62,449 nt of DNA from a virus. The number at the start of each line of letters is the position of its first letter. The stretch's first letter is position 1. The stretch lies in IMG/VR virus record IMGVR_UViG_3300006923_000022, positions 1-62,449 of that record; one strand, written 5' to 3'. The notes beneath the pieces are model-generated. The model did no database searches, was not told the DNA's origin, and saw nothing but the letters and a program-made list of their open reading frames with translations. Of this stretch, positions 9,701 through 39,969 are shown piece after piece. A program made the position numbers and the translations under genes.

Positions 9701-12700
9701 AGCTCAGGTCAGGCCGCATTTGCATCAACACTAAAGCATGGTGATATATTTAGACCATTTCCGCAAGCAAATCTTGAGCAGGAAATACAAATTTCACACA
9801 CAACTTTTCGAGGATACGCCGGCTCAACGGGCGATGAGAATAGAGCAAATCATCGAAAAGCGTTACATTTCGACACATCTGGTACAAATGCAACAATGGC
9901 ACTAAGAAATACCAGTTATACTAATACAACAGATGCAACAGCAGTTTCTGTTTCGTTTTGGCTAAACAAGTATACTTCCACTCAAGGACACATAGTCGTA
10001 TTAGGAGAAGGTCCAGCCACCACAGACGGTATTTTCATCGACTATGAATCTGGTAAACTTAAGGTAAAAATTGGAAATGGAAGCTCTGGCGATGTTGCTT
10101 TTGATGTAACACTCGGTTTAAATGAATGGAAGCATGTCACATTAACTGCTTATAAAAATTTGGCAACAAATCCAAAATTATGGATAGACGGAGAGCCACA
10201 ATCACTAGATGCAGGATACTCCAACGTCACAACACCTTTAGGATCTACAGACCAAATAGCTATAGGAGACTTCGGAATGAGCAACGCCGCATATGAACTT
10301 CAAGGAGCTTTACAAGACTTTGTCGTTTGGAATACTCAATTAACCAATGAAGATGCTATGGTTCTTTATAATTCTGGCTCTTGGCTTGACATTTCTTCCC
10401 ATGCTTCTGCTTCTCATATTTGGGATTGGTGGACGCTTGGAGAGGAAACAAATATTGCACAAAACTCAGGCTCAGCTTTAAGTACAGGAACACCAGTGAC
10501 TTCAATATCTCCAGAAGTAGGTAGACACAGTCTAACTGTCTCTGATAATACAAAAATTGTCGTCACAGATGGTATAGTCGAAACTCTGATGTCTAACAGC
10601 TCCTTTTGGCAAGGTATATTGAACAGTTTTAACACCAGTTTAGGAGTGGACGCTCAACCAGCCGGTGGAGGAGCAGATTCCGGCATGGGTATATCTAGGG
10701 TAGATGGTACAATAACTTGGAAATCACAATACCATGGTAACCCAAAGTATACTTATGAATATGCTTTTGAAGAAACTGGTTCAACATTCGCAGTTACTCA
10801 GTTTGCATCAAACGGAACTCTTATCACAAAAAGGCATGATGGAGCAATTGGTGGACACTTTGTCCAATTTAATTCCACAGACGGAGCGGCAACAAAGTTC
10901 ATTGTTGACGAAGAGAACACAAATGCCGCTGGTAATTACGCAAAGGTTGGTAATGATTATTATATATATTCTTCCGGTAGTGATTCTACTTTCTGGACTC
11001 GACTATCCGGAGCGATCTTCACAGAATTTCCAAGCTATCAGATTTATAATTCAAGCAGCGCAACTGGTGCCACATTTTACTTAACAGGTGGTATCCTAAC
11101 AGATTTGTACACAATGGGTGTGAGTGAGAATAATAGAACAATTACTTCCGGTAGTGGTCCCCTGCATCCGGTAGGCGCAGAGGCAATATTCGGTGGCACA
11201 AGTTTCGGAGGTTTTAGTGGTTTATCTGGTGGTGTTGACCAAGTCTTCGAAAAAGGGTTGATCAATGTTATACAAAGAGAAGATGATTTCCTTACAGGTT
11301 CCACACGAAACCGAACAGTCATCACTTCCCGCTTCTCAGCACCCGGTGGAGTAGAGGTTCAAACTTATGGATATCTTGATGCTTATGCAAGAGAATATTC
11401 AGTACACAACAACTTAAACTACAGAAATTTAACAGTCAGAGGTTCAGGAAGTGGAGAGAACACTTATACTGTAGACCCCTCATTTGCGATAACCAATGAC
11501 TCTGGGGATGAATCTAGTTTTAACTTTAGTATTTCATCTCCGGGTAAGCTTTTTGTAACACCGGATACAAATAGATTTGCAATTTCATTTTGGGCAAACA
11601 ACACAAATACGTTCGGGGATGTACCAGTATTTAAATTTACCGATGGTACGTCAGGCGAAATGAGGCTAACTATTACTTTAAAATATGACCAAGAAAATTC
11701 TTATATAGTTTTATTAGCGGAGGATTTAGACTTCAGCGGCTTGGATGCTTCTTATGTATGGAGTGGCGCTGGTGCTATTGATGTTAATGGTGGCTGGAAC
11801 CATTATTTTATTGCTTTTAATCCATATGGAGGAAGCGATTCAACCCTGCATCCTTTTCTTTATATTAATGCCCAATCTTCTTCTCTCCACAGCAGCACAG
11901 TGGTTGATGGTTTGCACAACAACTTCCCAGCCGCCTATGGTTTGGATACTTGGGACGAAGAAAGTTGGAGTGACCAATACCTTAGAACTTTTGAAATTAA
12001 TACAGGATATAATTGGGCTGTTCAAGACATTGTGCTCTTTCACAATGAAGATTCCGGTGCTCCACTAAATTGGACACAAAACGATATTAACCTTTTATAT
12101 AACACTGGTTCTGGACAAACTGACTATGTGGGTCATCCAAAGTATGCTGAGATAGTTTCCGTTTATAGATTTGGCGAAGAACTAAGGCCCAATGGTTACA
12201 AAAATGGAGATTCGTTAACAAAATATCTAGATACACCTTCATTTTCACCTATACATACGGCTGGGACACATGGAAAAGCACTCGATTTAAACGCAGACTT
12301 GAACGCCGACAAATCTTCCATTGCAGCAGGTTATTATGTAAGCTCTGTCTCTGGTTTTAAATCGATGAGAGTAAACAGTCATATTAACACTAGAGACGGT
12401 TTAAGAACGCTTTACCAGCGTCCTATGGGTAGAGCTGGTGTTGATGGAAATACATCTGTTGATAGTTCAGATTATGATTATAATGCATCTTTTCACAAGG
12501 TACCGAGAAATACCGTTGTTAGAGTGGGAGACGAAATAACAACGTTTGACAAAATAGTTATGAAATTTGGTGCTGGTGGATCATCCGGTGATTGGTGGTA
12601 TTCTCAGGATCTTGACACCCGTCCCGGCGATCCTCAATGGGGAGGAACAGATTGGTTTGGCCTCACTATTGTGTTCAAATGGAGTGGGGAACAACAACCC

Positions 12701-13693
12701 TCTAGTACTTTTGCTGAGATTACGAATTTTGATTCATATGGCAGCGACAGCTCTTTCAAAATTAGAATATCTACTAGCGGTACGTCGCTCGTTATGCCCG
12801 GTGACTCAGGTGATATTAGGTATTCTGATTTTGGTTTTGCAGACGACAGCACACCAGTAGGTGAATGGATTCAAGCGTCTGTTTTCATAAAGAAGGATGG
12901 AACAGAAGAACCCATAGCTTTTGTTAATGGCAAGAAACCACCAATTGGCTCAACAGGAATTATGAATTACGTTCACCCAGCTGAACCAGCAACATTCTCT
13001 CCTAAACAATATAACATTGGAGACTACTGGACCGGTGGCTACAATTATGCATTTATTGGAGAAATATCAGAATTCTTCATTTGGAATCAAGTACCAGATT
13101 TTAAAGCCCTAAGAGATCTATACAGGAATCCCCAAAATGATATAACAGCATCGGTTGATTTATATAAACTTGATCAATATATAGCCTTGGGAGAGTATCC
13201 ACATAATCTCAACCCAGCTTTAGAGACACTGACAGATGGATGGGTTCTTAGCAACTCCGACCCAGACGATTGGACTTGGGCCGGCCCTTGGAGGCATGTC
13301 GGCGAAGTGACCGGGAAAACAACTTGGTACTGGGGAAAATCAGAAGACAATATCGATCTTTCAGGCACTTCTCTATCGGGCATGAACAGGATCACATATT
13401 ACCAGCATCCAAATACTGACAGTAGAATAACATTGGTTACTTCAAGTTTATCAACATATCAATCCACACCGGTCTTGGTAGAAAAAAGTAACAACTATAA
13501 TTACCAAACCTCGATCCCTTCTTCCGATTACAATTATTCTTGGGCAACTTCTTCACTTGGAGATAATTACTCTGTAAGAAGTGGAACTCAAAAAATATTT
13601 GGTTATTGGCCAAAAGATGGTCTAAATAAGGTTGCCGGAGTTATAGATTCAGCAATTACCTTCCCCACAGCATCAGAAATATACGGAGAATAG
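3773..13693 (+). CDS. Giant baseplate/tail protein with LamG-like repeats
   Basis: A 3306-aa virion protein, the longest in the window. The first ~120 residues (NFVHFGSAKEYYEGSIKRIY) and a second helical block at about 580-625 (YNNIDFILKSKGTEKSFRN) look like baseplate-anchoring regions. Concanavalin/LamG-like modules recur at roughly residues 185-395, 1685-1860, 2055-2225, 2600-2805 and 2960-3135. Each opens with a strand such as ITIQFWLKK, VSVSFWLNK or FAISFWANN, and several end with a Tyr/Trp-x-x-Gly-Glu-Glu motif (DYWKMGEE, DWWTLGEE, SVYRFGEE). LamG folds often bind glycans, so receptor or surface binding is plausible. Position after gp25, gp6 and a DNRLRE protein suggests it takes the place of T4 gp7/gp10-type peripheral wedge proteins, but that is inference. 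Two adjacent ATGs (3773, 3776) are possible starts. Confidence 0.7.
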   Translation: MMSISDFFNKKIVTQSSLEETTSSVESPDLIKEISKKNQTFFPNVNFSDPSNFVHFGSAKEYYEGSIKRIYESYPYDGSEAEKMVFDSKSTYLDQWLLDNKYPKSTGYALFSAEEWGSATSTIDQYAVPTNKEYIYSAGGMHSASLTQHENQDDPIGNHALKDVFNLGVKYDADKNRTINYRMKMDDGITIQFWLKKDAFTTTTDKEVILDLWNGIADSGSHDYGRLTLEMSGGASLATTGSVFYLTLRSGSYGIINRAICASSYNASSISNGVWQHHTVTVKAANTNLDVKYYNNGLLNLARTFPTTVTLADVPNNINAYIGALQTSAQGIPSARGVMVGAGKLSASMDDFRFWKKTLDNEYVYNTWYYPIGGGSNTDDYRTNLGVYYKFNEGITGTSSLDSMVLDYSGRIANGLWVKDSGYTGAVCRNTGSAFASASVLTEEPGDPIIRSAHSSVQSLLIEMQTSGSDYDRTNSSYIYNSLPAWIREEDEANDNIKYLYQILGSYLDTLYVQISEIPKLKDKNYFSASAEPYPFTERLLNDRGLLTPNSFVNGDVMEYFWDRNKHGVHYEQTIEKTKRLIYNNIYNNIDFILKSKGTEKSFRNLLRCYGIDDELVKLNVYTDNGKHYLTDRYKNSSVKTKVLDLNKASRVNASVTQTSSSMNALTFISGSGAELNEKFSAFSFEAGITFPKKPSFGETGYFLDTSLSSSLFGFHQAVSGANAHYGWNTPDDANLQVYAVKAALDSERVKFVVTNTDASIYAESDYYEEVYNAERWNFQLSIKPTGYPFNGSATHTANPTYDVELYGVTHNLGDVRNEFLIANTATYAKGVQIMTQPKRVYIGAHITDFTGSAITPSDVLFDSCRAWMDKLENESIKQHNLDPMNYGHDKIYNATTLFNVTISSSVCIPGADSLILHWNFDQNTAANTTGSFFVEDFSSGSTSNLYGWASNIIERENKGYGVGFPNSDPSPVRSEFIFARRKELPEISFTDDNITIMGDKQKFFIEDEDTTDNVFALEKSMYQVMSEEMLRTFATMKEYSNLFSKPVDLYRSEYKRLRKARELFFNRVEANPDLDRYVDYYKWIDSSLSFFIEQLKPASVTFTKGISDVVESHIFERPKYNRKFPTVKTIQATQGVIKTIGELEYNWKFGHSPEYKTTNENTNCLWQRERRERTGANATQRQSIIDTINTNAQSYNVYLGDNDKNIYLRPTYVTKRFSRPYKLDYELKTTIHGGINYNQQKNRDFVFNVTRPHGAKTNLGIPVNVFTVGAGTGQGITNTRLCYDEEDPTKVVEFEYIMIAGKDSSGDGAAPATASLEYAYKVKGHLASPFKLISGSISKGANKKVYDNYKTDAVITNLHSDTTYFENDIPMQGPFTETWVGGHQSRHVEINKYDTNKQPGDGNAPLNNLDGVYSRPEAWRLVFGEHTDELTKDGAFGFVGADYGGPYPDNTRKFAIYYRGLRAKRPYNVGNISGSAYRLGNYKENYEYFNSVGRLENNTRLKKAASTEDYLIDSLFLPTDIKTILPATTNPLTLIAIAPSGSGNIFGQGESNRLNDNLEMVIDGVSATGSFQVTSSTTYLQQWTGSVVVQGIPKAATHSCLSWTVATGSSLPNGDILQLTASGTDFEIEIDKTSAAAPTGSSNATLSVYPATVFGLNTYRRAIRAKATSAEVSPYADYLNNSQFASNNFSVSLWFNNLNNDTSYNTSFFNFYEGSDQRHYLDISGNDFLLHYENNAGSSDELTFDTNAVTVSGSQWMHIIAVFEVDDLTDNAKAPKMFINGNPVTASGADSYTAPGGTPPAIDKLQLRIDDYCMIQDLTVWKTLLTGSEAAQELYNGGVWKSPATHTSASSIIDYWKMGEELDWDRLQLKTGDELDDYLPAGSKYISSSFGAGGISFPISTSDDEHVELVKGYGDRTNTDIWDALSASLDGKFPGYDTSYISGSQNAHFFMRATSSGVETVDYYATGTGFASPKASSGQAAFASTLKHGDIFRPFPQANLEQEIQISHTTFRGYAGSTGDENRANHRKALHFDTSGTNATMALRNTSYTNTTDATAVSVSFWLNKYTSTQGHIVVLGEGPATTDGIFIDYESGKLKVKIGNGSSGDVAFDVTLGLNEWKHVTLTAYKNLATNPKLWIDGEPQSLDAGYSNVTTPLGSTDQIAIGDFGMSNAAYELQGALQDFVVWNTQLTNEDAMVLYNSGSWLDISSHASASHIWDWWTLGEETNIAQNSGSALSTGTPVTSISPEVGRHSLTVSDNTKIVVTDGIVETLMSNSSFWQGILNSFNTSLGVDAQPAGGGADSGMGISRVDGTITWKSQYHGNPKYTYEYAFEETGSTFAVTQFASNGTLITKRHDGAIGGHFVQFNSTDGAATKFIVDEENTNAAGNYAKVGNDYYIYSSGSDSTFWTRLSGAIFTEFPSYQIYNSSSATGATFYLTGGILTDLYTMGVSENNRTITSGSGPLHPVGAEAIFGGTSFGGFSGLSGGVDQVFEKGLINVIQREDDFLTGSTRNRTVITSRFSAPGGVEVQTYGYLDAYAREYSVHNNLNYRNLTVRGSGSGENTYTVDPSFAITNDSGDESSFNFSISSPGKLFVTPDTNRFAISFWANNTNTFGDVPVFKFTDGTSGEMRLTITLKYDQENSYIVLLAEDLDFSGLDASYVWSGAGAIDVNGGWNHYFIAFNPYGGSDSTLHPFLYINAQSSSLHSSTVVDGLHNNFPAAYGLDTWDEESWSDQYLRTFEINTGYNWAVQDIVLFHNEDSGAPLNWTQNDINLLYNTGSGQTDYVGHPKYAEIVSVYRFGEELRPNGYKNGDSLTKYLDTPSFSPIHTAGTHGKALDLNADLNADKSSIAAGYYVSSVSGFKSMRVNSHINTRDGLRTLYQRPMGRAGVDGNTSVDSSDYDYNASFHKVPRNTVVRVGDEITTFDKIVMKFGAGGSSGDWWYSQDLDTRPGDPQWGGTDWFGLTIVFKWSGEQQPSSTFAEITNFDSYGSDSSFKIRISTSGTSLVMPGDSGDIRYSDFGFADDSTPVGEWIQASVFIKKDGTEEPIAFVNGKKPPIGSTGIMNYVHPAEPATFSPKQYNIGDYWTGGYNYAFIGEISEFFIWNQVPDFKALRDLYRNPQNDITASVDLYKLDQYIALGEYPHNLNPALETLTDGWVLSNSDPDDWTWAGPWRHVGEVTGKTTWYWGKSEDNIDLSGTSLSGMNRITYYQHPNTDSRITLVTSSLSTYQSTPVLVEKSNNYNYQTSIPSSDYNYSWATSSLGDNYSVRSGTQKIFGYWPKDGLNKVAGVIDSAITFPTASEIYGE

Positions 13694-13694
13694 A

Positions 13695-16600
13695 ATGCCC
13701 ATAAACCTCGACTTTGTTGGACTCAACACACTAGTAAGAGAAGAAATAGATACAACTACGAATACCATTGGAAAAGCAAACACAAAGGCTATAAAAATAC
13801 CATCAACTACCACAGCAAATGTCGGTTTAAGTAATTCCTCGTTAAAAGGGTATGGAACTGGGGAAATATCTATATCCTTTTGGGCTAAAACATCAGGTCC
13901 CGGCTCTGGTGGTCCTGATATATTCAAAAGCCCTACAGCAGAATATACCCAATGCTCAATGTCTAGCGGTGATAAGATACGCCTTTATTGGCAATTTACA
14001 AGTAATTATAAATATTGGGCTTGGGATCTTTCTGAAGAAGCCCAAGCTGGCTTTGCGCATTATGTTTTTTCATGGTCAGGGTTACTAGACACAAGTCCTG
14101 TTTTATTTATTAATGGTGTTGATCAAGGAACAACAACAATCTATGGCAGTGGCGCTGGTACGAGACTTCCCATTAGCGATATTCATATAGGTGGAAACCC
14201 CGGAGATGCAGGAGACGAGATACAAGGCAATATACAAAATTTTGCTTTTTTTAACAAAAAGCTTGTGTTAGCAGAAGTAGAAGAACTTTATTCTGATGGT
14301 TTTTCTATTGATATTAGAGAAACATCGGTTGCCTCTAGTGTTATAGATTATTGGCGCTTGGGTGAAGAAGAGGAATTGTCTTCGTTTGACTTTGACGAGA
14401 AAGTAACAAATGGTTTGGAGATTTTACCAACAATTGGTCAAAACTCTTTATCTGTAGTAGAAGGTGTTTTTATTGGTAGAGGCGCTATTAAAGAGACAAG
14501 AAACAAGCAAATTCAAACAATTCCTTCAGCCCATTATTTTGTCGCCTTAAACACTCACAGAAATGGACCATATGGTCATCCAACCTTCAAGCAACTCCGA
14601 GTTTCAGAGAATCCAATAACAAGATATCAGAACAGAAACAATATTTTAACAACAGTGGATTCGGCTGGTATTGAAAGGGCTGTTATAAAAGATGGTAAAA
14701 CAATCTCTATTCACAAAGATAGATATGGTCCCTTAAAAAGTTTCGAAGAACCAGTTGTGGTTTCAAACAAGAAGCCTATATCTTCGATAGTTAATATTAA
14801 ACTAGAGCAGGACAATGAAACCATTGAGGAAAAATTGATCATATCCGCTCCGTTTACAAACGAACTTAGTTATTTCAAAAACGATGAATTGAATATTCTT
14901 AAAAATCTAACATCGGAAACCAGCGACAGTTATGAAGAATTTAAGAAAATATATAAAGTAACGAACTCTGATTCTCCAATCGTCAAGACTATCGAGAGTG
15001 TTAAATTTGAACAAATAGTCTTTCCAACCAATTTATATTCAAATAGAAGTTATACAAGACTTCGACCCAATTTTCCGTCCGACGTTTGGAGGACTGATAG
15101 ACTTTTAAGAACTGAGAATAGTGTTGATAACAAATTTGGTCATATAATTCCATCACAATCAATGTGGCCACTAGACGCAGAGGAGGACTTTTCAAGCCTA
15201 ACCCTCGCCGGAGATCCCGGTGTCTTTAGATTTTATGGACCAGCCGTGCTAACAGCCTCAACGGGCCTAGCCCTCCCTAGTGCTGCTCTAACGCACCCTC
15301 AAGCAGCAGCTTTCTATAAAGGTATTCTCTTTTATGATCGAACTGTTGCAATGGAAACCGCTGATTATGGATATTCAACAGCAATTAACGACTGGGTCGA
15401 GACTCAACTTTGGTCGAATTTTATCTTATTGCGCACTGGTGGCTCGAGTTATGGCGATCACTTGGTAAAGGCTTCACAAGTATTCTGGTCAACTATAGCA
15501 GATACTTTGTTAAATCCAATTTACGGAGGATACAGTTCCGTAGATGTCGTCGAAACCATTCGCTCTAGAAAAGGCATCTATCTATCAGATCTTGGAAACA
15601 TTAATAGTCGCGGAGCTTACAGTAGATATGTTGAACTAAAGAACATAAGAGATAACACCGCAAAACCCGCAGATGCCCCAGAGAACGAAAACTATCGAAT
15701 GCATTGGGCATCTTGTTCAATAGATTGTGGTATAACATTTTGGAATGCCCTATATAACCACCCGAGCGATTCTTATGACACTCTTTTTTACGACGTTTCA
15801 GCTTCCAACGATCTACTGACAGAAGTGGGCTCTGGGGACGTTGGTGCTCTAAATAAACAAATCTATTATTCAACATCATCTGTTAAATTGCCGGATTCTG
15901 CTTGGACAAGCTATGGTTCACCAAGACTTGTTGTTCGTCTTGGAACCAAATGGTTCAAGAATGATGGGACCGTTCATTACGGAAATACACCAGAGAACGG
16001 TGCCGTGGAATATATCTTTGATAACATATGGGGAGTAAATAATAAATTTAGTGTTAACGATAGCGGTTATCACTTAAAGCCCCACGTAGGTCGACAATCT
16101 CACTTCTATGTTTCTTTAAGTCAATCAAATATGACCGTTTTTCATAGTGGAAATGTTCAACTTGCAATAAACGGTGAGTTCATGTCCGCTAGTTTTATAA
16201 ATGATCAGTGGGGCTTTTTCAATGGGAATGGTCACGTACCTCCAAATCATCTAGAATATACTGCTTCAATGTGGACTTCTGTTGATACCGGCTCTACGAC
16301 AACGGATGTATTTTTCTTCCAAGCAGGAAACAGGTCTGATGATAGTCATTGTAATGAAATGTATTTCTCTGATATTGCAATATTCAGTGGAACATTCGCA
16401 CATAACAGTCTTGCACCTTCCGCGATGAATGATAAAGTTAAATACTTGTGTGGTGGAGTTACAGCCACTGAGACAAAGACAAATAATAATACTGGAGTCA
16501 GGTTCCAGCACTATGGATATGCAAAAATCCAAGGAAGCTTAACTGAGCTTAGTGGTCCATTTGTTTGGTATGACTTTGAAAAAACAGACATAGGAGTATC

Positions 16601-19600
16601 ATTTGATTATAGTGAAACTAGTTTTGGCCTAGCAACAGCATCAGCGACTCCAAATGTCAGTGCCTATAACTATTATGCTGTTGGTCCTGATGATATAGAT
16701 GGATACGTAGAACCAATCGCTGAATATTTGAGATTAGATAGTGGCTCTTATGGCGATTTCGTAGCGACTCCGGGTTCTAATTACAATGCTTATTTGATAG
16801 GCACATTCACCGATAGTGGCTCTTCAATGGCCCTGCCGCCGTTTGAGGCTCAACTCGCAGGAGAATCTAAAATATTTACTTCTCCTGATCCAGCCTCACC
16901 GCCAATTGGTGGCGCTTCTGGGAGAGACTCGATATCTGGTCCCGGAATCTTGCAAAATTCCTATTCACAGTTTACAAGAAATTTAGATTTAGATGCTGCT
17001 GTAACAATAGACGTTCAATTATCAGCTTCTGCTTTTTATGCTAGAAGGCATTCTTTAACTTTAGCAGATAGTGTTAGGAACCCTTTTTACTCTCAAATAT
17101 CTTCTTCGACCATTTATCCACTTACCTCCCAACACTTGTATTTAGGCTCGGCCTATTGGGATGCTCCATCACAGGCTGGATACTTCGATAGTGACGGACT
17201 TTTTATTGAAAGGGCGAAGGAGCCGTTTTATGACTCTTATGGAAAATTCGCAGAGGAGTTTAGAGGATTAGGGAAAGAATATTCAATTGTACCAGAATTT
17301 ATGATGAGTAATCACGTAGACACTTACTTAGCTAAGGGACCCTTAGATGAAAATTTAAAAATATTTGAAATGCATGGTGCTCTTGATGATGGTGATAGTT
17401 CCGAACAAAACTTTTATAAAATTTATTCAAACACTGAATTTTTAGATTTGTTTGATGTTGTCAAGCAAGATCACAAGAAATTCTTTGACCCCTATAAAAT
17501 CACTTTGCGATGCAAGGCGATTAAAAAATTCTTACCTTATAAAGGTTTTTATCCTTGTGAGAAAACAACTGATATAGCTCAACAGTTTTATTCTTCTTAT
17601 GCCGGCAACATAACTGCTACAAGTAGTCAAGGTGTTATTGTAGAGGGTGCAAACTATCCCACACAGTATTTACTAAATCCTTTGTTTGGCCCCGGAGTCT
17701 TGTTTAATACAATAAAATCAGGTATTGCCTGTGATTATCCGATTGTCAATACAACATTGGTTCCAAAAACACCAGATGATACAAACTATTACATTGATCA
17801 AGCTTTTGATACAAGAATTCCTTTTGAAGCGTTGATAGAACCAGAAAAATATCTAGCCAACGTCCCTTTGTTTTCAAACGAACCGGACCCAAAAGGTAAT
17901 GCTAAAACAGAAATAACTTGGAATGGACAAGGGGATGAGCTATATAAACTAAAGATGAACAACTTCTTATCAGAGGTTGGAAATTTCTTCTTAGTGAATG
18001 AGAATTACACAACCCTATCATCACTACCAGAGGGAGATCCAAACTTTGGAAACGCCGAAGGAGGAAAAGTCTACAGTATGAGACTAAAGATGTATAGGTC
18101 TGTTACCGGTAGTAAATCTGGTGAAGTAAGTTGGGATGGTATAAAATTTGGTATCCCACAAGACTCAGGCTCAATGGGAGAATCTTTTACCATGTATTCT
18201 CGTCCTTCTGCTTTTGGTCCACCAACTTTATTTTCGGCATCAACCTTTCAAACAACAAACTGGAATAAATATAAGAAAGACAATGCTCCTGATTTTGCAT
18301 ACTCAACTACTACCACATACACTGATGTTACAGCCTCAAGCGCTGCTGATGGTTATAATTTTCCATTTACTCCTCCATATTATCATGGTGAAGCATGGGC
18401 TGATATCACATTCGTCCCTCCCTCAGGAACAAAGAAATACTCTCTTTCTGATATTTTGAACAATTCATCTGTTGAATTCTTTAGGTTCTTTGAATCCGGA
18501 TCTATTCCTCAAAAACAACTATATTCTTCTGGAACTGTTGTTAATAACGATCAAGCTATGCAAATAGCCTCTTCAATGAATATATTTTCAAAAGGTATTT
18601 TAAGAGAAGACTTTACTGGTGGAACATTGGTAGAGACAGAAATAGCTAATAAATATCGCTGGGTTATACAATCTAAGTTTGAAACACCAACTCTAAATTT
18701 TAATCACCACTCACATGATACTATTACAATGCCGAGTGTCGCGACTAGTTCTGTTCCAATTGGGATGTGGCACCAATATGGAAAAATACCTCAAAGTACA
18801 AATGAAGGAATATTTGTCCAGATAGAAAATATCCCCAAAACTTGGACAGAAGCTGCAATGAGGTGCGATTACGACACTACTGGTTCTTTATTAAATTTAT
18901 GTGGTTTCTCTGCTGATCCGATTAGAATAGGAGATATTAAACAAACAAAAATTATTCAAGAAGCTGTCGTGGCCATTCCCTTTGTCAGGAGAAACGGAAA
19001 GAACAAATTTTTTATTCTTAATGAAGATGACGTTAAGAACTCAATAGCAGGCAAAAAACAGTTAGTTGGGAAAACCGTCAACACTTTGGTCGAACAACTT
19101 CAAAATTATGTCTTTCCTCCGCCATTTGATTTCGTTAATTTCCCAGATGTGAAGGCAGTCGCTATGTACGTGTTTGAATTTTCACACACCTTATCCAAAC
19201 AAGATCTTGCAGACATATGGCAAAATCTCCCACCAGACATCGGAGTTACCCATGAAGAAGCTGTTTCTGAAATATCGCATGAACTATTTTCGCAAGAATT
19301 TCTAGGTTCCGGTGCAATCGTCGATCAGAATGATAAGTTAGAGAAATTCACAAATTTGAGTATTTTACCATCTGATATTAGATGGATGGTGTTTAAAGTT
19401 AAGAAAAGAGCTACTAATAACTATCTTGAAAAGATGTTTGAAAGAAATGACTCTGGTACAGCTACATCTGGGAATGATATCTCGGCTGGGGTAACAGGTA
19501 AAAAACAAAAAATTGGTTATAACTGGCCTTACGATTTCTTTTCTTTAGTGGAACTAATTAAGTTAGACGCATCGGTTGAGTTTGGAAAGATTGATAGAGA

Positions 19601-19661
19601 GAAATCAATACAATTGGATCAAACATTTTTAGAACCCGTGTTAATAAAAGATGAAGAATAA
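13695..19661 (+). CDS. Second giant tail/baseplate protein with N-terminal LamG-like module
   Basis: A 1988-aa protein starting one base after the previous stop. Residues about 50-215 form a LamG-like module (EISISFWAKTSG, then HYVFSWSGL, ending in VIDYWRLGEEEE) closely resembling modules of the preceding giant protein, so the two share building blocks. The middle (about 420-1100) is a long Tyr/Ser/Asp-rich region without a recognised domain. The C-terminal ~750 residues include a helical, charged section (FDVVKQDHKKFFDPYKITLRC near 1255-1275) and several conserved-looking blocks such as IPFVRRNGKNKFF near 1760. Its stop overlaps the next start (TAATG). A baseplate or tail-fibre-network role is inferred from context only. 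Confidence 0.65.
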   Translation: MPINLDFVGLNTLVREEIDTTTNTIGKANTKAIKIPSTTTANVGLSNSSLKGYGTGEISISFWAKTSGPGSGGPDIFKSPTAEYTQCSMSSGDKIRLYWQFTSNYKYWAWDLSEEAQAGFAHYVFSWSGLLDTSPVLFINGVDQGTTTIYGSGAGTRLPISDIHIGGNPGDAGDEIQGNIQNFAFFNKKLVLAEVEELYSDGFSIDIRETSVASSVIDYWRLGEEEELSSFDFDEKVTNGLEILPTIGQNSLSVVEGVFIGRGAIKETRNKQIQTIPSAHYFVALNTHRNGPYGHPTFKQLRVSENPITRYQNRNNILTTVDSAGIERAVIKDGKTISIHKDRYGPLKSFEEPVVVSNKKPISSIVNIKLEQDNETIEEKLIISAPFTNELSYFKNDELNILKNLTSETSDSYEEFKKIYKVTNSDSPIVKTIESVKFEQIVFPTNLYSNRSYTRLRPNFPSDVWRTDRLLRTENSVDNKFGHIIPSQSMWPLDAEEDFSSLTLAGDPGVFRFYGPAVLTASTGLALPSAALTHPQAAAFYKGILFYDRTVAMETADYGYSTAINDWVETQLWSNFILLRTGGSSYGDHLVKASQVFWSTIADTLLNPIYGGYSSVDVVETIRSRKGIYLSDLGNINSRGAYSRYVELKNIRDNTAKPADAPENENYRMHWASCSIDCGITFWNALYNHPSDSYDTLFYDVSASNDLLTEVGSGDVGALNKQIYYSTSSVKLPDSAWTSYGSPRLVVRLGTKWFKNDGTVHYGNTPENGAVEYIFDNIWGVNNKFSVNDSGYHLKPHVGRQSHFYVSLSQSNMTVFHSGNVQLAINGEFMSASFINDQWGFFNGNGHVPPNHLEYTASMWTSVDTGSTTTDVFFFQAGNRSDDSHCNEMYFSDIAIFSGTFAHNSLAPSAMNDKVKYLCGGVTATETKTNNNTGVRFQHYGYAKIQGSLTELSGPFVWYDFEKTDIGVSFDYSETSFGLATASATPNVSAYNYYAVGPDDIDGYVEPIAEYLRLDSGSYGDFVATPGSNYNAYLIGTFTDSGSSMALPPFEAQLAGESKIFTSPDPASPPIGGASGRDSISGPGILQNSYSQFTRNLDLDAAVTIDVQLSASAFYARRHSLTLADSVRNPFYSQISSSTIYPLTSQHLYLGSAYWDAPSQAGYFDSDGLFIERAKEPFYDSYGKFAEEFRGLGKEYSIVPEFMMSNHVDTYLAKGPLDENLKIFEMHGALDDGDSSEQNFYKIYSNTEFLDLFDVVKQDHKKFFDPYKITLRCKAIKKFLPYKGFYPCEKTTDIAQQFYSSYAGNITATSSQGVIVEGANYPTQYLLNPLFGPGVLFNTIKSGIACDYPIVNTTLVPKTPDDTNYYIDQAFDTRIPFEALIEPEKYLANVPLFSNEPDPKGNAKTEITWNGQGDELYKLKMNNFLSEVGNFFLVNENYTTLSSLPEGDPNFGNAEGGKVYSMRLKMYRSVTGSKSGEVSWDGIKFGIPQDSGSMGESFTMYSRPSAFGPPTLFSASTFQTTNWNKYKKDNAPDFAYSTTTTYTDVTASSAADGYNFPFTPPYYHGEAWADITFVPPSGTKKYSLSDILNNSSVEFFRFFESGSIPQKQLYSSGTVVNNDQAMQIASSMNIFSKGILREDFTGGTLVETEIANKYRWVIQSKFETPTLNFNHHSHDTITMPSVATSSVPIGMWHQYGKIPQSTNEGIFVQIENIPKTWTEAAMRCDYDTTGSLLNLCGFSADPIRIGDIKQTKIIQEAVVAIPFVRRNGKNKFFILNEDDVKNSIAGKKQLVGKTVNTLVEQLQNYVFPPPFDFVNFPDVKAVAMYVFEFSHTLSKQDLADIWQNLPPDIGVTHEEAVSEISHELFSQEFLGSGAIVDQNDKLEKFTNLSILPSDIRWMVFKVKKRATNNYLEKMFERNDSGTATSGNDISAGVTGKKQKIGYNWPYDFFSLVELIKLDASVEFGKIDREKSIQLDQTFLEPVLIKDEE

Positions 19662-29596: not shown

Positions 29597-29625
29597 TTGA
29601 CAAACCCTCAACCATATGTTATAAT
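29597..29625 (+). promoter_or_regulatory. Sigma70-type promoter for ruvC-like gene
   Basis: TTGACA (29597-29602), a 17-nt spacer and TATAAT (29620-29625), preceded by TG, give a full-consensus extended -10 promoter. The ATG of the resolvase gene is at 29631, only five bases past the -10 element, so transcription would begin at or next to the start codon. Confidence 0.85.
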
Positions 29626-29630
29626 AGAAT

Positions 29631-30143
29631 ATGATCTTAGGAATAGACATTAGTACAAGCAAGATAGGAATATCTATAATTGATTATGATGAAAATTTAA
29701 TCTTATCTGAATTGATAAAGATGAAGTCCTCAGACTCACTTGAAGTCAGAGCTAAGATCTTTGATAAGAAAATGATTGAAATAAGGGGGAACTATGAGAT
29801 CAAACACATATTCATCGAGCAGCCATTCATGGCATTCTCGGGAGGCAAAACGACAGCAGTTACTATGGCAAAGTTGCAACGCTTTAATGGTATGTGTTGT
29901 TATGCCGTCTATGATTTATATGGCTTTTCTGCATCGCTCATACAAGCTAATAAAGCGAGAGGACTCGTCGAACTTAAAATCAAAAGGGGTGACAACACGA
30001 AGCTCAAGGTTATTGAATGGGTTAGCGAAAAGTATCCAAAAGATTTTATAGTAGAGTATACAAGACACGGTAATCCAAAACCCGGAACCGATGACAAAGC
30101 CGACGCAATCGTTATTGCAAATGCTGGATTAAAAACTATTTAG
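29631..30143 (+). CDS. ruvC: RuvC-like Holliday junction resolvase
   Basis: A 170-aa RNase H-fold nuclease of the RuvC type, expected to resolve branched DNA during phage recombination and before packaging, taking the role T4 gives to endonuclease VII (gp49). Catalytic acidic residues are visible: Asp6 in the opening LGIDIST strand, Glu63 in HIFIEQPF, and the C-terminal pair Asp155/Asp158 in TDDKADAIVIA. Length matches RuvC (about 170 aa). No Shine-Dalgarno precedes the ATG, and the promoter abuts it, so the message is probably leaderless. The stop codon lies within a candidate late promoter box for the next gene. Confidence 0.85.
   Translation: MILGIDISTSKIGISIIDYDENLILSELIKMKSSDSLEVRAKIFDKKMIEIRGNYEIKHIFIEQPFMAFSGGKTTAVTMAKLQRFNGMCCYAVYDLYGFSASLIQANKARGLVELKIKRGDNTKLKVIEWVSEKYPKDFIVEYTRHGNPKPGTDDKADAIVIANAGLKTI
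30136..30143 (+). promoter_or_regulatory. Candidate late promoter box CTATTTAG at the resolvase stop
   Basis: AACTATTTAG overlaps the final codons and stop of the resolvase gene and ends exactly 17 nt before the ATG at 30161, the commonest spacing for this box. It would give the next gene a separate late promoter. Confidence 0.5.
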
Positions 30144-30980: not shown

Positions 30981-31916
30981 ATGGAAGAGAAACGAAAGAT
31001 CGTTTCCGATATACTTGGAGGGTATAATCGGAGAGGAAATGAACACCTATATTCATGCCCATATTGTAATCACCACAAGAGAAAGATGTCCGTCAACTTC
31101 TCACAAGGTGTGTTCAAATGTTGGGTTTGCGATACAAGAGGTAAGAACATCTATAGGATTGTTCGCAAGTTTGGTAACTACAACCAAAGACAAAAGTGGC
31201 TTGAACTTGAGGGTCGCTTAGACCTTACAGAGTTTGATAAACTTTTCAACGAAATAAACGAGATAGAAATCGAACAGGTGATCGACTTACCAGAAGAGAT
31301 GATATCTCTTTGCAACAAGCACCTTCCGAGATCATCACAAAAGCCTTTAGACTATTTGCGAGACCGAGGAATATCCATGGAGCAGATAAAGCTTTGGAAA
31401 ATAGGCTACTGCCCAGAGGGAAGGTACGGAGGCCGTATTATTATCCCATCGTTCAATATGAACGGAGACGTCAATTATTTTATTGCACGTTCGTATGTAG
31501 GTCATAGAAGAAAATACCTCAACCCTTTGGCTTCCAAGGATATTATATTCAATGAACTTATCATTGATTGGGATGAACCTGTCGTTCTTGTTGAGGGAGT
31601 GTTTGATGCTCTCGTTGCAGGAACGCAAGCCATCCCTATCCTCGGCTCCACTTTAAGGACGAACTCTCGCCTGTTCCAAGCCCTTTCTATCAATGACACA
31701 CCAGTATACCTAGGACTTGACGCAGACGCTGAAAAGAAGGCTTCTTGGATGATTAAAAGCATGTTACAGTATGACATGGAGATCTATAGGATAGATACAT
31801 CAGCAGTTGAGGATATTGGCTCAATGTCCGAGAGACAGTTCTATAATGCCTTCCAAAATGCCGAACCGATAGAATCCGATTTCTATTTCTTTGAGCGAAT
31901 GATTAGCAGGATATAA
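30981..31916 (+). CDS. 61: DNA primase, gp61-like (CHC2 zinc and Toprim domains)
   Basis: A 311-aa primase that would make RNA primers for lagging-strand synthesis with the phage helicase. The zinc-binding domain has Cys26-x2-Cys29 (SCPYC) and Cys47-x2-Cys50 (CWVC). The Toprim core is visible as VLVEGVFDAL (Glu205) and GLDADAEKK (Asp247, Asp249). Length is close to T4 gp61 (342 aa). It has its own consensus promoter and a strong ribosome binding site, as expected for an early gene. Its helicase partner is not in this window. Confidence 0.85.
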   Translation: MEEKRKIVSDILGGYNRRGNEHLYSCPYCNHHKRKMSVNFSQGVFKCWVCDTRGKNIYRIVRKFGNYNQRQKWLELEGRLDLTEFDKLFNEINEIEIEQVIDLPEEMISLCNKHLPRSSQKPLDYLRDRGISMEQIKLWKIGYCPEGRYGGRIIIPSFNMNGDVNYFIARSYVGHRRKYLNPLASKDIIFNELIIDWDEPVVLVEGVFDALVAGTQAIPILGSTLRTNSRLFQALSINDTPVYLGLDADAEKKASWMIKSMLQYDMEIYRIDTSAVEDIGSMSERQFYNAFQNAEPIESDFYFFERMISRI

Positions 31917-31942: not shown

Positions 31943-32257
31943 ATGAAATTAACAAACGAACAATTAAAGCAAATTATCAAGGAAGAGATTCAAGAAATTC
32001 TCTCCGAGTCAGATTGGGATCCAACCCGTATGACAAAGAAAGAAAAGGATGTATTGAGAGGTCCCAAACCAACATCGTCGTATGAAAACCCAAATCCCGG
32101 AATGACACTACACAGCATGCAGGCAAAGATATACATCAATGCTCTGGATGAGTTGAGCCCAGAAGATGGACCACTTACTGCTGATCAGGGAACAATAGAT
32201 GCTATCTTGAAAATAAGACCTGACCTAGAAGGTCGAGTCGTTTTAAAGGAAATATAA
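31943..32257 (+). CDS. Small protein with shared QIIKEE leader (copy 1)
   Basis: A 104-aa protein whose first 19 residues, MKLTNEQLKQIIKEEIQEI, are nearly identical to those of three other small proteins (35797, 37267, 38122). The rest (WDPTRMTKKEKDVLRGP, then LDELSPEDGPLTADQGTID) is unrelated to the payloads of the other three and matches no family I know. The leader is an amphipathic helix with I-K-E at residues 12-14, compatible with a gp21-type prohead protease site. I infer a capsid-targeted internal protein. It has a GAGGA ribosome binding site and its own late-type box. Confidence 0.6.
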   Translation: MKLTNEQLKQIIKEEIQEILSESDWDPTRMTKKEKDVLRGPKPTSSYENPNPGMTLHSMQAKIYINALDELSPEDGPLTADQGTIDAILKIRPDLEGRVVLKEI

Positions 32258-32265
32258 AAAATAAT

Positions 32266-32294
32266 TTGACAGATCTTCCGCAATGTGTTATAAT
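32266..32294 (+). promoter_or_regulatory. Sigma70-type promoter for SbcD-SbcC fusion gene
   Basis: TTGACA (32266-32271), a 17-nt spacer and TATAAT (32289-32294) preceded by TGT give a perfect extended -10 promoter. This also fixes the gene start: an upstream in-frame ATG at 32283 would lie before the -10 box, so the ATG at 32322 with ACGGAGGA is the real start. Confidence 0.85.
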
Positions 32295-32321
32295 GATAAC
32301 ATAAGTAATCACGGAGGATAT

Positions 32322-35300
32322 ATGACTTATAAGATCGCACATTTTGCGGATACACATATTCGTAATCTTAAATACCACGAAGAGTATCGTTTTGTTTTCA
32401 AACAAATGTACAAGAAACTTCGAGACCAAAAAGTTGACATGATCGTTCATTGCGGTGACCTCGCTCACACAAAGACCCAACTGTCACCAGAATACTTTGC
32501 TATGGCAGCGGAGTTTCTCAAGAACTTGGCAGACATAGCACCAACCTATGTTATATTAGGAAATCATGATGGAAACCTTAGAAACTCTGGAAGAGAAGAT
32601 GCTATCACGCCGATAGCAGAAGCACTAGATCATCCGAACCTGCATCTCTTAAAAGACTCAGGAAACCACCGAGTCGATGCTGGTCTGTCGTTTAACGTGC
32701 TTTCTATCTTTGATAGAGAGAACTGGGAACATCCAGATAGCAACGGTATCAATATCGCTCTATATCATGGAGCTGTTATGGGTTCAACAACTGGAACTGG
32801 CTGGGCTATGGAACACGGAGACGATGATATCTCTGTATTCAAAGGTCATGACTTTGCTATGCTTGGAGACATTCATAAACCACAGATACTAGACCCAGAA
32901 GGTCGTGTACAGTATGCTGGCTCAACGATTCAACAAAACTTCTCAGAAGGATCTCGCAAGGGATATAAACTATGGTGCATCGACTCAGAAGAGAAATTTA
33001 ATGTACAACACGTCACATTCGTCTCTCCTCGTCCGTTTATGACCATCGACTTGAACAAGACGGGTGAGATACCCGAACACTATCATATACCCCGTGGTGC
33101 AAGGCTCAGGCTTATTTCTCGCACCAACTTGCCATCAACAAAGATACGCAAGGTTACTGATTTAGCCCGTTCTAAATATAATCCGACCTCTGTTACCTTT
33201 GTCGACAAAAGCACATCAGAATTCACATCCTCGCTCGGAGAAACGCAAAGAATGGAGAACCTTCGAGATCTTTCGGTCCAAGAACGTTGGATTCGAGAAT
33301 ATTTAAAAGAATATGAGTTAGATGAAGAGATAATGCAAGAAGTACTCGATTTAAACTCTAAATATAATAAGGAAGCAGAAAAGAATGAAGAAGTCAGAAG
33401 AAACGTCACATGGAGTATTAAAGAGATGCAGTTTGAAAATCTTTTCAATTATGGATCGGGTAATAACGTGGATTTTACAAAGCTCTCTGGAATTGTTGGC
33501 ATATTTGGCAGGAACTACAGTGGCAAATCTTCTATTATTGATTCTGCTTTGTATGGCCTTTTCAATACAACCTCCAAGGGCGAAAGAAAAAACGTCCACA
33601 TCGTCAATCAAAACAAGAGCAAAGCATGTATACAAATGGTCATTGAAGCAGATGGCCAAGAATATCAAATATGTCGGAATCTTAATAAATCTAGTAAGAC
33701 CGTCAAAGGAAAGTCCGTCATTAGTGCCTCTGGGGATCTTGATTTTCACAATATCACTACCGATAGTTCTTGCAATGGCGATTCTATAAAAGATAGTGAT
33801 AAAAACATTCGTAAAGTCTTTGGCTCTATTGATGACTTTATGATCACATCTATGGCTTCTCAAATGGATTCGTTATCGTTTATCAAAGAAGGATCAACGA
33901 AACGCAAGGAGATTCTTGCAAAGTTTCTTGATCTCGAACTCTTTGATCAAAAATTCAAATTGGCAAAGAAGGATTCGTCGGAGATAAATGCTCTTATTCG
34001 AAGATTCAAAAACAAAGAGTTAGCAAAACATTTGATTATAAAGCAGGAAACCATTGAGGAGATATATGACGATATCGACAGACAAACAGATCTCTGCAAG
34101 AAACATACCAAACGATATGAAGAACTCAAAACAGAACTGAATCAGATAGAACAAGATATCTCATCTATTCCAACAGAGATAGTTGATATACATGAGATAG
34201 AAGATATGATTGCCCAAAGACATGACGACCTTGCTAGAGCGAAAGAGATGTTTGTTTTATATGAAGCAACAATAGAAAAGAATAAGGAAATCGCCAATGA
34301 ATTGGTGACTCATATATCTTCTCTATCTCATGAGAGGCTGGAGGCTTTAGAACTATCTTGGAAAGACCATAAGAAAAAATATGGTGAAAACCAACAAGCA
34401 CTAAGTGCCCTCGCTGCAAAACAAAAGAATGCATCAAAGAAGATAAAGATGTTGGATAATCATGAATATGATCCCGATTGCTCGTTCTGTTGTGATAACA
34501 AATTCGTAAAGGATGCTAATAAGGCAAGAGATCTATTGCCATCTATCCAAGCAGAAATGGATGCTCTATCGATAACAGGTGAAGAACTACAAGAAAAGAT
34601 GGATTTCTTAGATATTAATTCTATCCATGCTGATCTTGAGAAGCATGAGAAGCTCACAAAGAGAAAGAACGTTCTTCTCTCCGAGGCCAAAAACTTAGAG
34701 ATAAAAGCAGAGTCTTTGGTATCAAAGGTTTCTTTATATAAAAACGAACTTACTTCTCTCAAAGAAAAGCAGGAAGAGTATGAGAATAACAAGCATGCCA
34801 TTGAGAACCTTTCTTCTTTGACAAGATCAAAGTATGCTGTGAGGACCAAAATGCTTGAGGCCAAAGGAAGAAAAGATAAGTGCGACAAGAAGGTTCAAGA
34901 CTGCCTTGTTGAACTAGGTTCAGTTAAACATGCCATGAAGGTAATACGCTCAGAGAAAGCCGAACAGGATGCACTAGAAGCAGAATGGATTGCTTATGAC
35001 CTCTTCATGAGATGTATGCATACAAATGGCATTGCTTATGAAGTTATCAAGCAAAAACTTCCTATTATCAACGAAGAGATCCAAAAGTGCCTTTCCACCA
35101 TTGTCGACTTTGAAATTAACTTTGAGGAAGACGGAAGAAATCTTAATATTAGTATAAGACATCCTAAATATGAGTCTCGACCAATCTCTATGGGTTCCGG
35201 TGCGGAAAAGACAATAGCAGCGATGGCGATTAGATTAGCTTTGATTTCTATTACGAATTTGCCAAAAAGCACACTATTTATAATGGATGAACCAGCTACT

Positions 35301-35465
35301 GCTCTTGACCAAGAACATATGGAAGGTTTCATTAGACTTTTGGAGATGATTAAAACAAAATTCAAAACTATTCTTCTAATATCACACTTAGATGTTCTTA
35401 AGGACTGTGTTGATACAACAATCGATATCCAAAAGCACAATGGTTATGCCAAAGTAAATGTCTAG
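32322..35465 (+). CDS. Single-chain Mre11-Rad50 (SbcD-SbcC, gp47-gp46) fusion nuclease
   Basis: A 1047-aa protein that joins the two recombination nuclease subunits normally encoded separately (T4 genes 47 and 46). Residues 1-~340 are the Mre11/SbcD phosphodiesterase: Asp10/His12 (ADTH), Asp46 (CGDLAH), Asn81-His82-Asp83 (GNHDG), an LYHGAV block near 150 and GDIHKPQ near 185. From ~375 the Rad50/SbcC ATPase begins: Walker A GRNYSGKS at 396-403, long coiled coils, a zinc hook Cys720-x2-Cys723, the ABC signature MGSGAEKT at 957-964 and Walker B LFIMDEP at 985-991. All catalytic motifs are present and the frame is open throughout. It should process DNA ends for recombination-dependent replication. 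Confidence 0.9.
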   Translation: MTYKIAHFADTHIRNLKYHEEYRFVFKQMYKKLRDQKVDMIVHCGDLAHTKTQLSPEYFAMAAEFLKNLADIAPTYVILGNHDGNLRNSGREDAITPIAEALDHPNLHLLKDSGNHRVDAGLSFNVLSIFDRENWEHPDSNGINIALYHGAVMGSTTGTGWAMEHGDDDISVFKGHDFAMLGDIHKPQILDPEGRVQYAGSTIQQNFSEGSRKGYKLWCIDSEEKFNVQHVTFVSPRPFMTIDLNKTGEIPEHYHIPRGARLRLISRTNLPSTKIRKVTDLARSKYNPTSVTFVDKSTSEFTSSLGETQRMENLRDLSVQERWIREYLKEYELDEEIMQEVLDLNSKYNKEAEKNEEVRRNVTWSIKEMQFENLFNYGSGNNVDFTKLSGIVGIFGRNYSGKSSIIDSALYGLFNTTSKGERKNVHIVNQNKSKACIQMVIEADGQEYQICRNLNKSSKTVKGKSVISASGDLDFHNITTDSSCNGDSIKDSDKNIRKVFGSIDDFMITSMASQMDSLSFIKEGSTKRKEILAKFLDLELFDQKFKLAKKDSSEINALIRRFKNKELAKHLIIKQETIEEIYDDIDRQTDLCKKHTKRYEELKTELNQIEQDISSIPTEIVDIHEIEDMIAQRHDDLARAKEMFVLYEATIEKNKEIANELVTHISSLSHERLEALELSWKDHKKKYGENQQALSALAAKQKNASKKIKMLDNHEYDPDCSFCCDNKFVKDANKARDLLPSIQAEMDALSITGEELQEKMDFLDINSIHADLEKHEKLTKRKNVLLSEAKNLEIKAESLVSKVSLYKNELTSLKEKQEEYENNKHAIENLSSLTRSKYAVRTKMLEAKGRKDKCDKKVQDCLVELGSVKHAMKVIRSEKAEQDALEAEWIAYDLFMRCMHTNGIAYEVIKQKLPIINEEIQKCLSTIVDFEINFEEDGRNLNISIRHPKYESRPISMGSGAEKTIAAMAIRLALISITNLPKSTLFIMDEPATALDQEHMEGFIRLLEMIKTKFKTILLISHLDVLKDCVDTTIDIQKHNGYAKVNV

Positions 35466-35476
35466 GAGGATAAGAT

Positions 35477-35800
35477 GTGGAAAAGGAAGAGTTCTTACAA
35501 AAAGTGGAGCAATACATGATAGAACAGAAAAATAAGTTACAAGACGCCAAAGAAGATATTCAAGAGAAAGTTGAAAAACTTGATCTTAAAAAGAAACTTT
35601 ATTTGGGTAATCCTAAAAAGGGCATGCTAGATGCTCTTCAAGAAAAAATGATTTCAAGAAAACTTCTTGTTTTCGTTTGTGCTACGGCACTTTTAGCATC
35701 AGCACAGTTAGATCCTGAGACTTGGGGAATGATTGCTATGATGTATATCGGTGGACAAACCGCCGTTGATTTTGCAAAAATGTGGAGACATGGACAATGA
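35477..35800 (+). CDS. Holin-like small membrane protein
   Basis: A 107-aa protein. The first ~58 residues are charged and helical (QKVEQYMIEQKNKLQDAK, EKVEKLDLKKK). Two hydrophobic segments follow at about 62-76 (KLLVFVCATALLASA) and 83-100 (WGMIAMMYIGGQTAVDFA). The layout resembles small phage membrane proteins of the holin type, and it heads a cassette of other membrane-associated small genes. The start is GTG 35477, six bases after TAGGAGGA; an ATG two bases earlier opens a frame that stops quickly. The stop overlaps the next start as ATGA. The lysis role is an inference. Confidence 0.45.
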   Translation: MEKEEFLQKVEQYMIEQKNKLQDAKEDIQEKVEKLDLKKKLYLGNPKKGMLDALQEKMISRKLLVFVCATALLASAQLDPETWGMIAMMYIGGQTAVDFAKMWRHGQ

Positions 35801-36162
35801 AAATTACAAAACAACAATTAAAACAAATAATCAAAGAAGAACTAGAAGCCATTCAAGAGAATGGTGAAGCATACCATCAGGGGTCTCAAGCAAGACAATC
35901 GCTTGATACTCAAGATACTTTGGACAAGGTACCAATGCAGGACCATGCAGAATACCAGTTGGTGGCACAAAATATGATGCAAGCCACAGAACACATGCAA
36001 CAGCTTGAAAAGGCTTTTGATATGGGAGATAATGAAGTGAGCAGAGAGATGCTCGGAGCTGCAATGACTGCTGTTCGCAAAGCTCAAAAAGCTTTCACCG
36101 AATTTATCGAAGGTTATATTAATGCTGATCAGAACCCTGATTATTGGGCACCTGACTATTAA
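35797..36162 (+). CDS. Small protein with shared QIIKEE leader (copy 2)
   Basis: A 121-aa protein opening with MKITKQQLKQIIKEELEAI, the shared leader. I choose ATG 35797 (ATGA overlap with the previous stop, GGAG nine bases upstream) over an upstream in-frame GTG at 35782, because the leader then starts at residue 1 as in its three relatives. The payload is Gln/Met/Ala-rich and helical (QLVAQNMMQATEHMQQLEKA, then AAMTAVRKAQKAFTEFIEGY) and resembles nothing I recognise. It is translationally coupled to the holin-like gene. A capsid-targeted internal protein is inferred from the leader. Confidence 0.6.
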   Translation: MKITKQQLKQIIKEELEAIQENGEAYHQGSQARQSLDTQDTLDKVPMQDHAEYQLVAQNMMQATEHMQQLEKAFDMGDNEVSREMLGAAMTAVRKAQKAFTEFIEGYINADQNPDYWAPDY

Positions 36163-36900: not shown

Positions 36901-37283
36901 AAAAGAAAGATCCAAACTATGCCGTAAAAGTTGAGAAAGAGATAGCAAAAAAGTACGGAGAAAAAACTGTTCAACACCCAAAAAGCCAATGGACTGACGA
37001 AAAAGAACGAGAATATGTCAAACAATTAAAAGATCTTTACAAAAGAAGAAACGAAGAAGAACAAGAACACGTTGAAGTTAATGGAGTTTTTGTTTCAAAT
37101 AAACTATTTACAAAAGAAACCAAACGCTCTTGTCCCGTTTGTAATACATACTCCTTCAAATCTAATGATGATGTTTATATGTCAAAGTTTGAGTGTTGCG
37201 AAAAATGTTATATCCAATGGGTTGAAGATCGCGAAGAACGATGGCTTAAAGGATGGAGACCTAGTAATGAAAATAACAAATGA
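36897..37283 (+). CDS. Small zinc-binding protein
   Basis: A 128-aa basic, charged protein. Cys79-x2-Cys82 (CPVC) and Cys100/101-Cys104 (CCEKC), 18 residues apart, form a likely zinc ribbon. The N-terminal ~60 residues are Lys/Glu-rich and helical (KVEKEIAKKYGEKT; EKEREYVKQLKDLYKRR). The end is Trp-rich (WVEDREERWLKGWRP). It starts within the stop of the previous gene (ATGA) and overlaps the next by 17 nt. Zinc ribbons of this size often mediate protein or nucleic-acid contacts, but no specific role can be assigned. Confidence 0.5.
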   Translation: MKKKDPNYAVKVEKEIAKKYGEKTVQHPKSQWTDEKEREYVKQLKDLYKRRNEEEQEHVEVNGVFVSNKLFTKETKRSCPVCNTYSFKSNDDVYMSKFECCEKCYIQWVEDREERWLKGWRPSNENNK

Positions 37284-37578
37284 ACAATTAAAGCAAATTA
37301 TTAAAGAAGAACTAGAGGCAGTTGTGGATGAAGGAATACAGACCTTAGCTACCGCGCCTCTGGACCAACCAGATCCAAACGATCATCTATTCAAACTAAT
37401 GGATCAAGTTACCGACATAGCTCTTGAAAAAATTGGTAAGCGTCAAGATCAAGAAGCTGAAGCTGAAATATCACCTTTATCTAATGAAGTTGTTACTTCT
37501 ATGGTAAACATTGAAGCTATGGCTGATGAAGTAATTCAAAGATACAAACAAGGTTATAAAGGAGAAACTTATGAGTAG
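37267..37578 (+). CDS. Small protein with shared QIIKEE leader (copy 3)
   Basis: A 103-aa protein opening with MKITNEQLKQIIKEELEAV. The start is ATG 37267, eight bases after GGAG; a long upstream extension of the frame from 37072 is only the out-of-frame shadow of the zinc-binding gene. The acidic, helical payload (HLFKLMDQVTDIALEKIG, then ISPLSNEVVTSMVNIEAMAD) is unrelated to those of the other leader proteins. The DNA encoding the leader is very similar to that at 35797, indicating duplication or exchange of the 5' module. It overlaps the next gene by 8 nt. Confidence 0.6.
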   Translation: MKITNEQLKQIIKEELEAVVDEGIQTLATAPLDQPDPNDHLFKLMDQVTDIALEKIGKRQDQEAEAEISPLSNEVVTSMVNIEAMADEVIQRYKQGYKGETYE

Positions 37579-39940: not shown

Positions 39941-39969
39941 TTGACAAAGTCCTTACTTTATGGTATAAT
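39941..39969 (+). promoter_or_regulatory. Sigma70-type promoter before portal gene
   Basis: TTGACA (39941-39946), a 17-nt spacer and TATAAT (39964-39969) preceded by TG make a full-consensus promoter directly after the terminase stop. It is followed five bases later by a candidate late box, so the portal gene seems to have both signal types. Confidence 0.8.

Follow-up and report, generated by a model that had tools for sequence, protein, structure and literature searches.

Proteins that carry Mre11 and Rad50 in a single chain were described in 2011 by Yoshida, Claverie and Ogata, who reported such fusions in Mimivirus, phage, plasmids, bacteria and eukaryotes and found them abundant among aquatic viral metagenome sequences (PMC3175470). 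Besides Mimivirus R555, 12 further cases were presented, the phage example being that of Bacillus phage 0305phi8-36. Matches were also found on 249 GOS scaffolds, many of which held phage genes such as primases, and the authors suggested that some of the GOS fusions stem from phages and not from large eukaryotic viruses; the scaffolds of that study were all short, and the fusion was confirmed in a few of the metagenome sequences (PMC3175470). In phage T4, the Rad50 and Mre11 counterparts gp46 and gp47 have a role in recombination (PMC3016280). That T4-type phages encode the two subunits separately, as stated in a preliminary description of the locus analyzed here, was seen for T4 gp47/gp46, RaK2 and HTVC008M. 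No later paper on phage Mre11-Rad50 (MR) fusions was found beyond the 2011 study in a search that covered the subscription literature in part. The novelty of the fusion that the preliminary description implied thus has to be given up, since Mimivirus and many aquatic metagenome scaffolds, most of them resembling phage, were already known to carry it (PMC3175470). Annotation often hides the architecture under names such as 'AAA domain containing protein' or 'DNA repair', which is one reason why it can look new. The fusion is very common in aquatic viruses: the proposed search of phage genomes for the same architecture, carried out as a profile scan of IMG/VR, yielded at least 555 relatives among the 600 pattern matches listed. 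Among plasmids, one weak partial match was the sole relative found.

The window, which is the whole analyzed stretch of 62,449 nucleotides from IMG/VR virus record IMGVR_UViG_3300006923_000022, contains a full-length phage member of the R555-type fusions, with an Mre11-like nuclease followed by a Rad50-like ATPase in one uninterrupted frame. This stop-free frame codes for 1047 amino acids on the plus strand (Table 1), and both domain sets are complete, as initially claimed. The order is Mre11 nuclease, capping domain, Rad50-binding helix-loop-helix, a linker of about 8 residues and a Rad50 ATPase with a short coiled coil and a CxxC hook. Pfam recognizes Metallophos (calcineurin-like phosphoesterase; 3.6e-12, residues 4-121) and AAA_23 (Rad50-type AAA domain; 1.7e-10, residues 370-613), and PHROGs assigns residues 275-1045 to the SbcC-like phrog_77 (1.6e-58). 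The motifs of the preliminary description were all confirmed at the positions it gives, and nearly all motif residues are invariant in 49 aligned relatives. The Mre11 half has D10/H12, D46, N81-H82-D83, H149 and GDIH at 182-185; of the metal-motif set of Mre11/SbcD (DxH, GDxxD/H, GNHD/E, H, GHxH), D10, H12, D46, N81, H82, H149 and H185 are conserved. The Rad50/SbcC set of Walker A, signature, Walker B and a coiled coil with CxxC hook is likewise present, with Walker A GRNYSGKS at 396-403, C720-x-x-C723, MGSGAEKT at 957-964, Walker B LFIMDE at 985-990, a D-loop from 994 and H1022 as the H-switch. The zinc-hook cysteines are found in 49/49 (C723) and 48/49 (C720) relatives. The sole departure from the textbook motif pattern is Asp183, which occupies the position of P. 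furiosus Mre11 His206, the first His of GHxH, and is nearly invariant to invariant in alignments of relatives. The same replacement occurs in Mimivirus R555 (PMC3175470). Because an Asp stands in place of the canonical His metal ligand, the nuclease chemistry of the fused protein is not guaranteed, despite the invariance of this Asp across the family.

Table 1. Features of the fused gene and its surroundings, in window coordinates (aa, residues of the fused protein).
Feature	Position	Strand	Basis
RuvC-like Holliday junction resolvase gene, with a perfect promoter of its own at 29597	29631..30143	+	phrog_159, 6.7e-17
DNA primase gene, just upstream of the MR gene	30981..31916	+	phrog_47, 2.4e-40
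Sigma70-type promoter TTGACA-N17-TATAAT, TG before the -10 element	32266..32294	+	Exact match; recurs in relatives
Ribosome binding site GGAGG, 4 nt before ATG	32313..32317	+	Sequence
Fused Mre11-Rad50 gene, 1047 aa plus stop	32322..35465	+	Frame, Pfam, relatives
Mre11 nuclease and capping domains (aa 1-296)	32322..33209	+	Metallophos match; structural match to S. aureus SbcD 7dog
Presumed two-helix Rad50-binding helix-loop-helix of Mre11 (aa 317-354)	33270..33383	+	AlphaFold helices 317-327 and 335-354; block pLDDT 78-92
Linker from the helix-loop-helix to the first Rad50 strand (aa 355-362)	33384..33407	+	Secondary structure of the model; R360 and N361 invariant
Rad50 ATPase N-lobe with Walker A (33507-33530) and start of coiled coil (aa 363-560)	33408..34001	+	AAA_23; structural match to SbcC/Rad50 heads, Z about 30
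Zinc-hook CxxC (aa 720-723), flanked on both sides by coiled coils	34479..34490	+	Conservation; helices 539-713 and 727-899
Rad50 ATPase C-lobe: signature MGSGAEKT (35190-35213), Walker B (35274-35291), D-loop, H-switch	35019..35462	+	Alignment; structural match

An AlphaFold model built with a 53-row alignment of the collected loci reached a mean pLDDT of 81.8 and a pTM of 0.53. The nuclease and capping domains are visible in it. Its two helices within residues 317-354, which by known Mre11 anatomy we take to be the Rad50-binding helix-loop-helix, are followed by 8 residues without regular structure and by the first Rad50 strand at 363. The Mre11 half matches S. aureus SbcD 7dog with a Z of 24.5 over residues 2-295 (Z about 24 for S. 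aureus and E. coli SbcD), and the Rad50 half matches SbcC/Rad50 heads, including E. coli SbcC, with Z about 28-31. When viral structure models were searched, DNA repair exonucleases of giant viruses, among them Tupanvirus, Harvfovirus and Yasminevirus, gave the best full-length matches, in keeping with the R555 family; the closest giant-virus model is about 22% identical to the window protein. As the pTM is modest, the placing of the domains in the model is no evidence of binding in cis. For the T. maritima complex, a gap of about 28 A between the chains was reported, which 9-12 residues were estimated to span (PMC3175470); the linker of the window protein, with about 8 residues, equals the lower limit of this estimate or falls slightly short of it.

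A fused frame of this kind could in principle arise from a sequencing or assembly error that erases the stop and start between adjacent genes, and one such case exists. The 1009-aa 'recombination exonuclease' annotated in Listeria phage LMTA-57 (L085) differs from the split genes of LP-124 (L091) by one deleted A in an A run at the junction, and it retains the intergenic stretch as well as the GGAGG and ATG of the second gene; judged by its sequence, it is likely a frameshift, very recent, or a sequencing error. A false or very recent fusion would look like that of LMTA-57, in contrast to the window gene. Neither an intergenic remnant nor a conserved start was found at its Mre11/Rad50 junction. 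The IMG/VR contig L002 agrees with the window over 13,141 bp at 99.95% identity, with 6 mismatches (3 differences falling inside the MR gene) and no gaps. From the locus set of IMG/VR and genome contigs, 127 entries carried the whole frame, and once 10 contigs that had been fetched twice were removed, the whole protein was present as one frame in 113 IMG/VR contigs (L002 included; 44-100% identity) and 4 MAG contigs (30-44% identity), with no split version of the gene among them. A further 32 loci are truncated at a contig end, and L096 runs into masked bases. At the junction, R360, N361 and W364 are invariant across 53 sequences, while codon changes among close relatives are mostly silent (4 silent and 2 not in L003; 11 and 3 in L007). 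With L002 concordant and every complete relative in a single frame, the fusion is not an artefact, the missed stop or frameshift raised in the preliminary description was not encountered, and the chance of such an error is practically negligible. More than 100 complete frames from virus contigs, with their neighbors and promoter, make the fusion the standard form of this lineage. An interruption was seen in the homolog of a huge phage (L081, LR756508.1), where about 1 kb (about 3572-4590 of L081), encoding a frame that resembles a zinc finger plus endonuclease, lies inside or just after the GDIHK metal-binding motif. The insert may represent an intron that carries a homing endonuclease; Rfam searches of the window and of this interrupted homolog gave nothing above threshold, intron included.

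The same relatives bear on whether a separate Rad50 subunit is also made from the fused gene by internal initiation near residue 338 or 369. The in-frame ATG at 33333 is preceded by GATGAAGAGATA, a weak Shine-Dalgarno-like stretch, but M338 is present in 33/49 and M369 in 27/49 relatives, both being replaced in many, and the AlphaFold model places M338 within the second of the two helix-loop-helix helices. No internal start is conserved, and an internal restart yielding free Rad50 was rejected as very improbable. At the 5' end of the gene, the perfect promoter and ribosome binding site noted at the outset were confirmed (Table 1). Exact TTGACA-17-TATAAT sites occur three times in the window, compared with 0.04 expected in shuffles, at 29597-29625, 32266-32294 and 39941-39969, directly before the resolvase, MR and portal genes, respectively. 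Among relatives, 32 of the 110 loci with enough upstream sequence, a count that takes in close relatives and is thus not one of independent cases, have 11 or 12 of the 12 consensus positions within 150 bases 5' of the MR gene; nearly all of these matches begin 48-67 nt before it, and shuffled upstream regions reach an average best score of 8.3. Translation of the MR gene is unlikely to start at an in-frame upstream ATG at 32283, as this codon sits between the two promoter elements.

The window carries virion genes of T4-like families, namely terminase, portal, prohead protease, major head protein and baseplate. The baseplate wedge gene is followed by two very long frames, of 3306 aa (3773-13693) and 1988 aa (13695-19661), and no tRNA genes were found in the window. 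Three small proteins (31943-32257, 35797-36162 and 37267-37578) that otherwise look unrelated open with a near-identical tag, MK[IL]T-x-x-QLKQIIKEE, and similar tags were seen in the relatives L019 (10474) and L135 (3411, 3677); this could be a shared sorting tag, e.g. into the phage head. Fused MR genes also occur on short contigs binned as Acidiferrobacteraceae, Flavobacteriales, an archaeon and Nitrosopelagicus (L092-L095), which are most likely phage contigs within bacterial or archaeal bins. The window and 10 large relatives, together 11 virus contigs that measure 58-204 kb and may be incomplete genomes, show one AAA_23 match each, always in the fused gene, and no second, separate Rad50 copy was found; the extra metallophosphoesterases of 3 of these contigs are separate frames of 233-258 aa. 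RecA-family genes are present in 4 of these 10 relatives and in Microcystis phage Mel-JY01, and none was seen in the window, itself a genome fragment.

Taken together, the gene is read, with a probability of roughly 0.9, as encoding a single-chain Mre11-Rad50 enzyme (SbcCD, T4 gp47/gp46), which would process DNA ends for recombination and recombination-dependent replication in a marine phage whose virion genes are T4-like. The ratio of Mre11 to Rad50 is 1:1, since both reside in a single chain. Two fused chains would probably pair into the usual M2R2 assembly, each Mre11 part holding the coiled-coil base of the Rad50 of its own chain through the helix-loop-helix, across the linker of about 8 residues. 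Binding and hydrolysis of ATP by the paired Rad50 heads would control when DNA ends reach the metal-dependent nuclease, while the zinc hook would serve to bridge DNA. In the phage, the fused enzyme most likely acts on DNA ends, presumably for their resection, in recombination and recombination-dependent replication, as T4 does. The protein might instead serve mainly as a host-takeover nuclease that degrades host DNA, given that the T4 record has gp46/gp47 also required for host-DNA degradation, which may be an added role; however, its neighbors are a resolvase and a primase, and large relatives show no other MR copy, which is what one would expect of a core replication-recombination enzyme, so this alternative appears unlikely. 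By analogy with T4, the resolvase and primase neighbors, the single MR copy and RecA in relatives support, without proving, a recombination role. At about 1050 aa, a single-chain MR enzyme would also be convenient for structural and biochemical work, since one gene would suffice as the construct.

Regarding the origin of the fusion, trees of the Mre11 part, the Rad50 part and both all separate the 19 sampled fused rows from the 8 split pairs by a supported branch, with long branches meeting. As the trees hold few split rows and lack R555 and the eukaryotic and plasmid fusions, a single origin is compatible with them and not demonstrated by them; several fusion events were argued for in 2011 (PMC3175470). 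It is a tentative and rather doubtful idea that the fused form represents one ancient lineage common to aquatic phages and giant viruses, whose linker of about 8 residues would compel the MR complex to form in cis and might restrict how far Mre11 can swing from its resting to its cutting position.

Compared with known systems, the window protein shares the architecture of the Mimivirus R555 type, with Mre11 N-terminal and Rad50 C-terminal in one chain, the capping and helix-loop-helix regions retained, a short linker, and Asp for the first His of GHxH. Its gene adjoins a primase gene, as do some aquatic metagenome members of this type next to phage primase genes. In contrast to R555 (1351 aa), the chain has 1047 aa, mostly through a shorter coiled coil, and whereas Mimivirus is a giant amoebal virus, the window belongs to a phage with T4-like virion genes. 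Mel-JY01 provides a distant relative in a named cyanophage: WWT39521.1 is fused, has 1066 aa, is 30.6% identical over its whole length and lies just downstream of a primase gene, while its annotation reads 'AAA domain containing protein' and makes no mention of a fusion. T4 gp47/gp46 shares the domains, the motifs and the short coiled coil, and the virion genes of the window are T4-like as well; however, the T4 proteins come from two genes with small genes between them, an arrangement that the window gene does not have, and in the tree they stand on a branch separate from the fused lineage. E. coli SbcCD, finally, shares the fold of both halves but is encoded by separate genes, has a much longer coiled coil and is remote in sequence.
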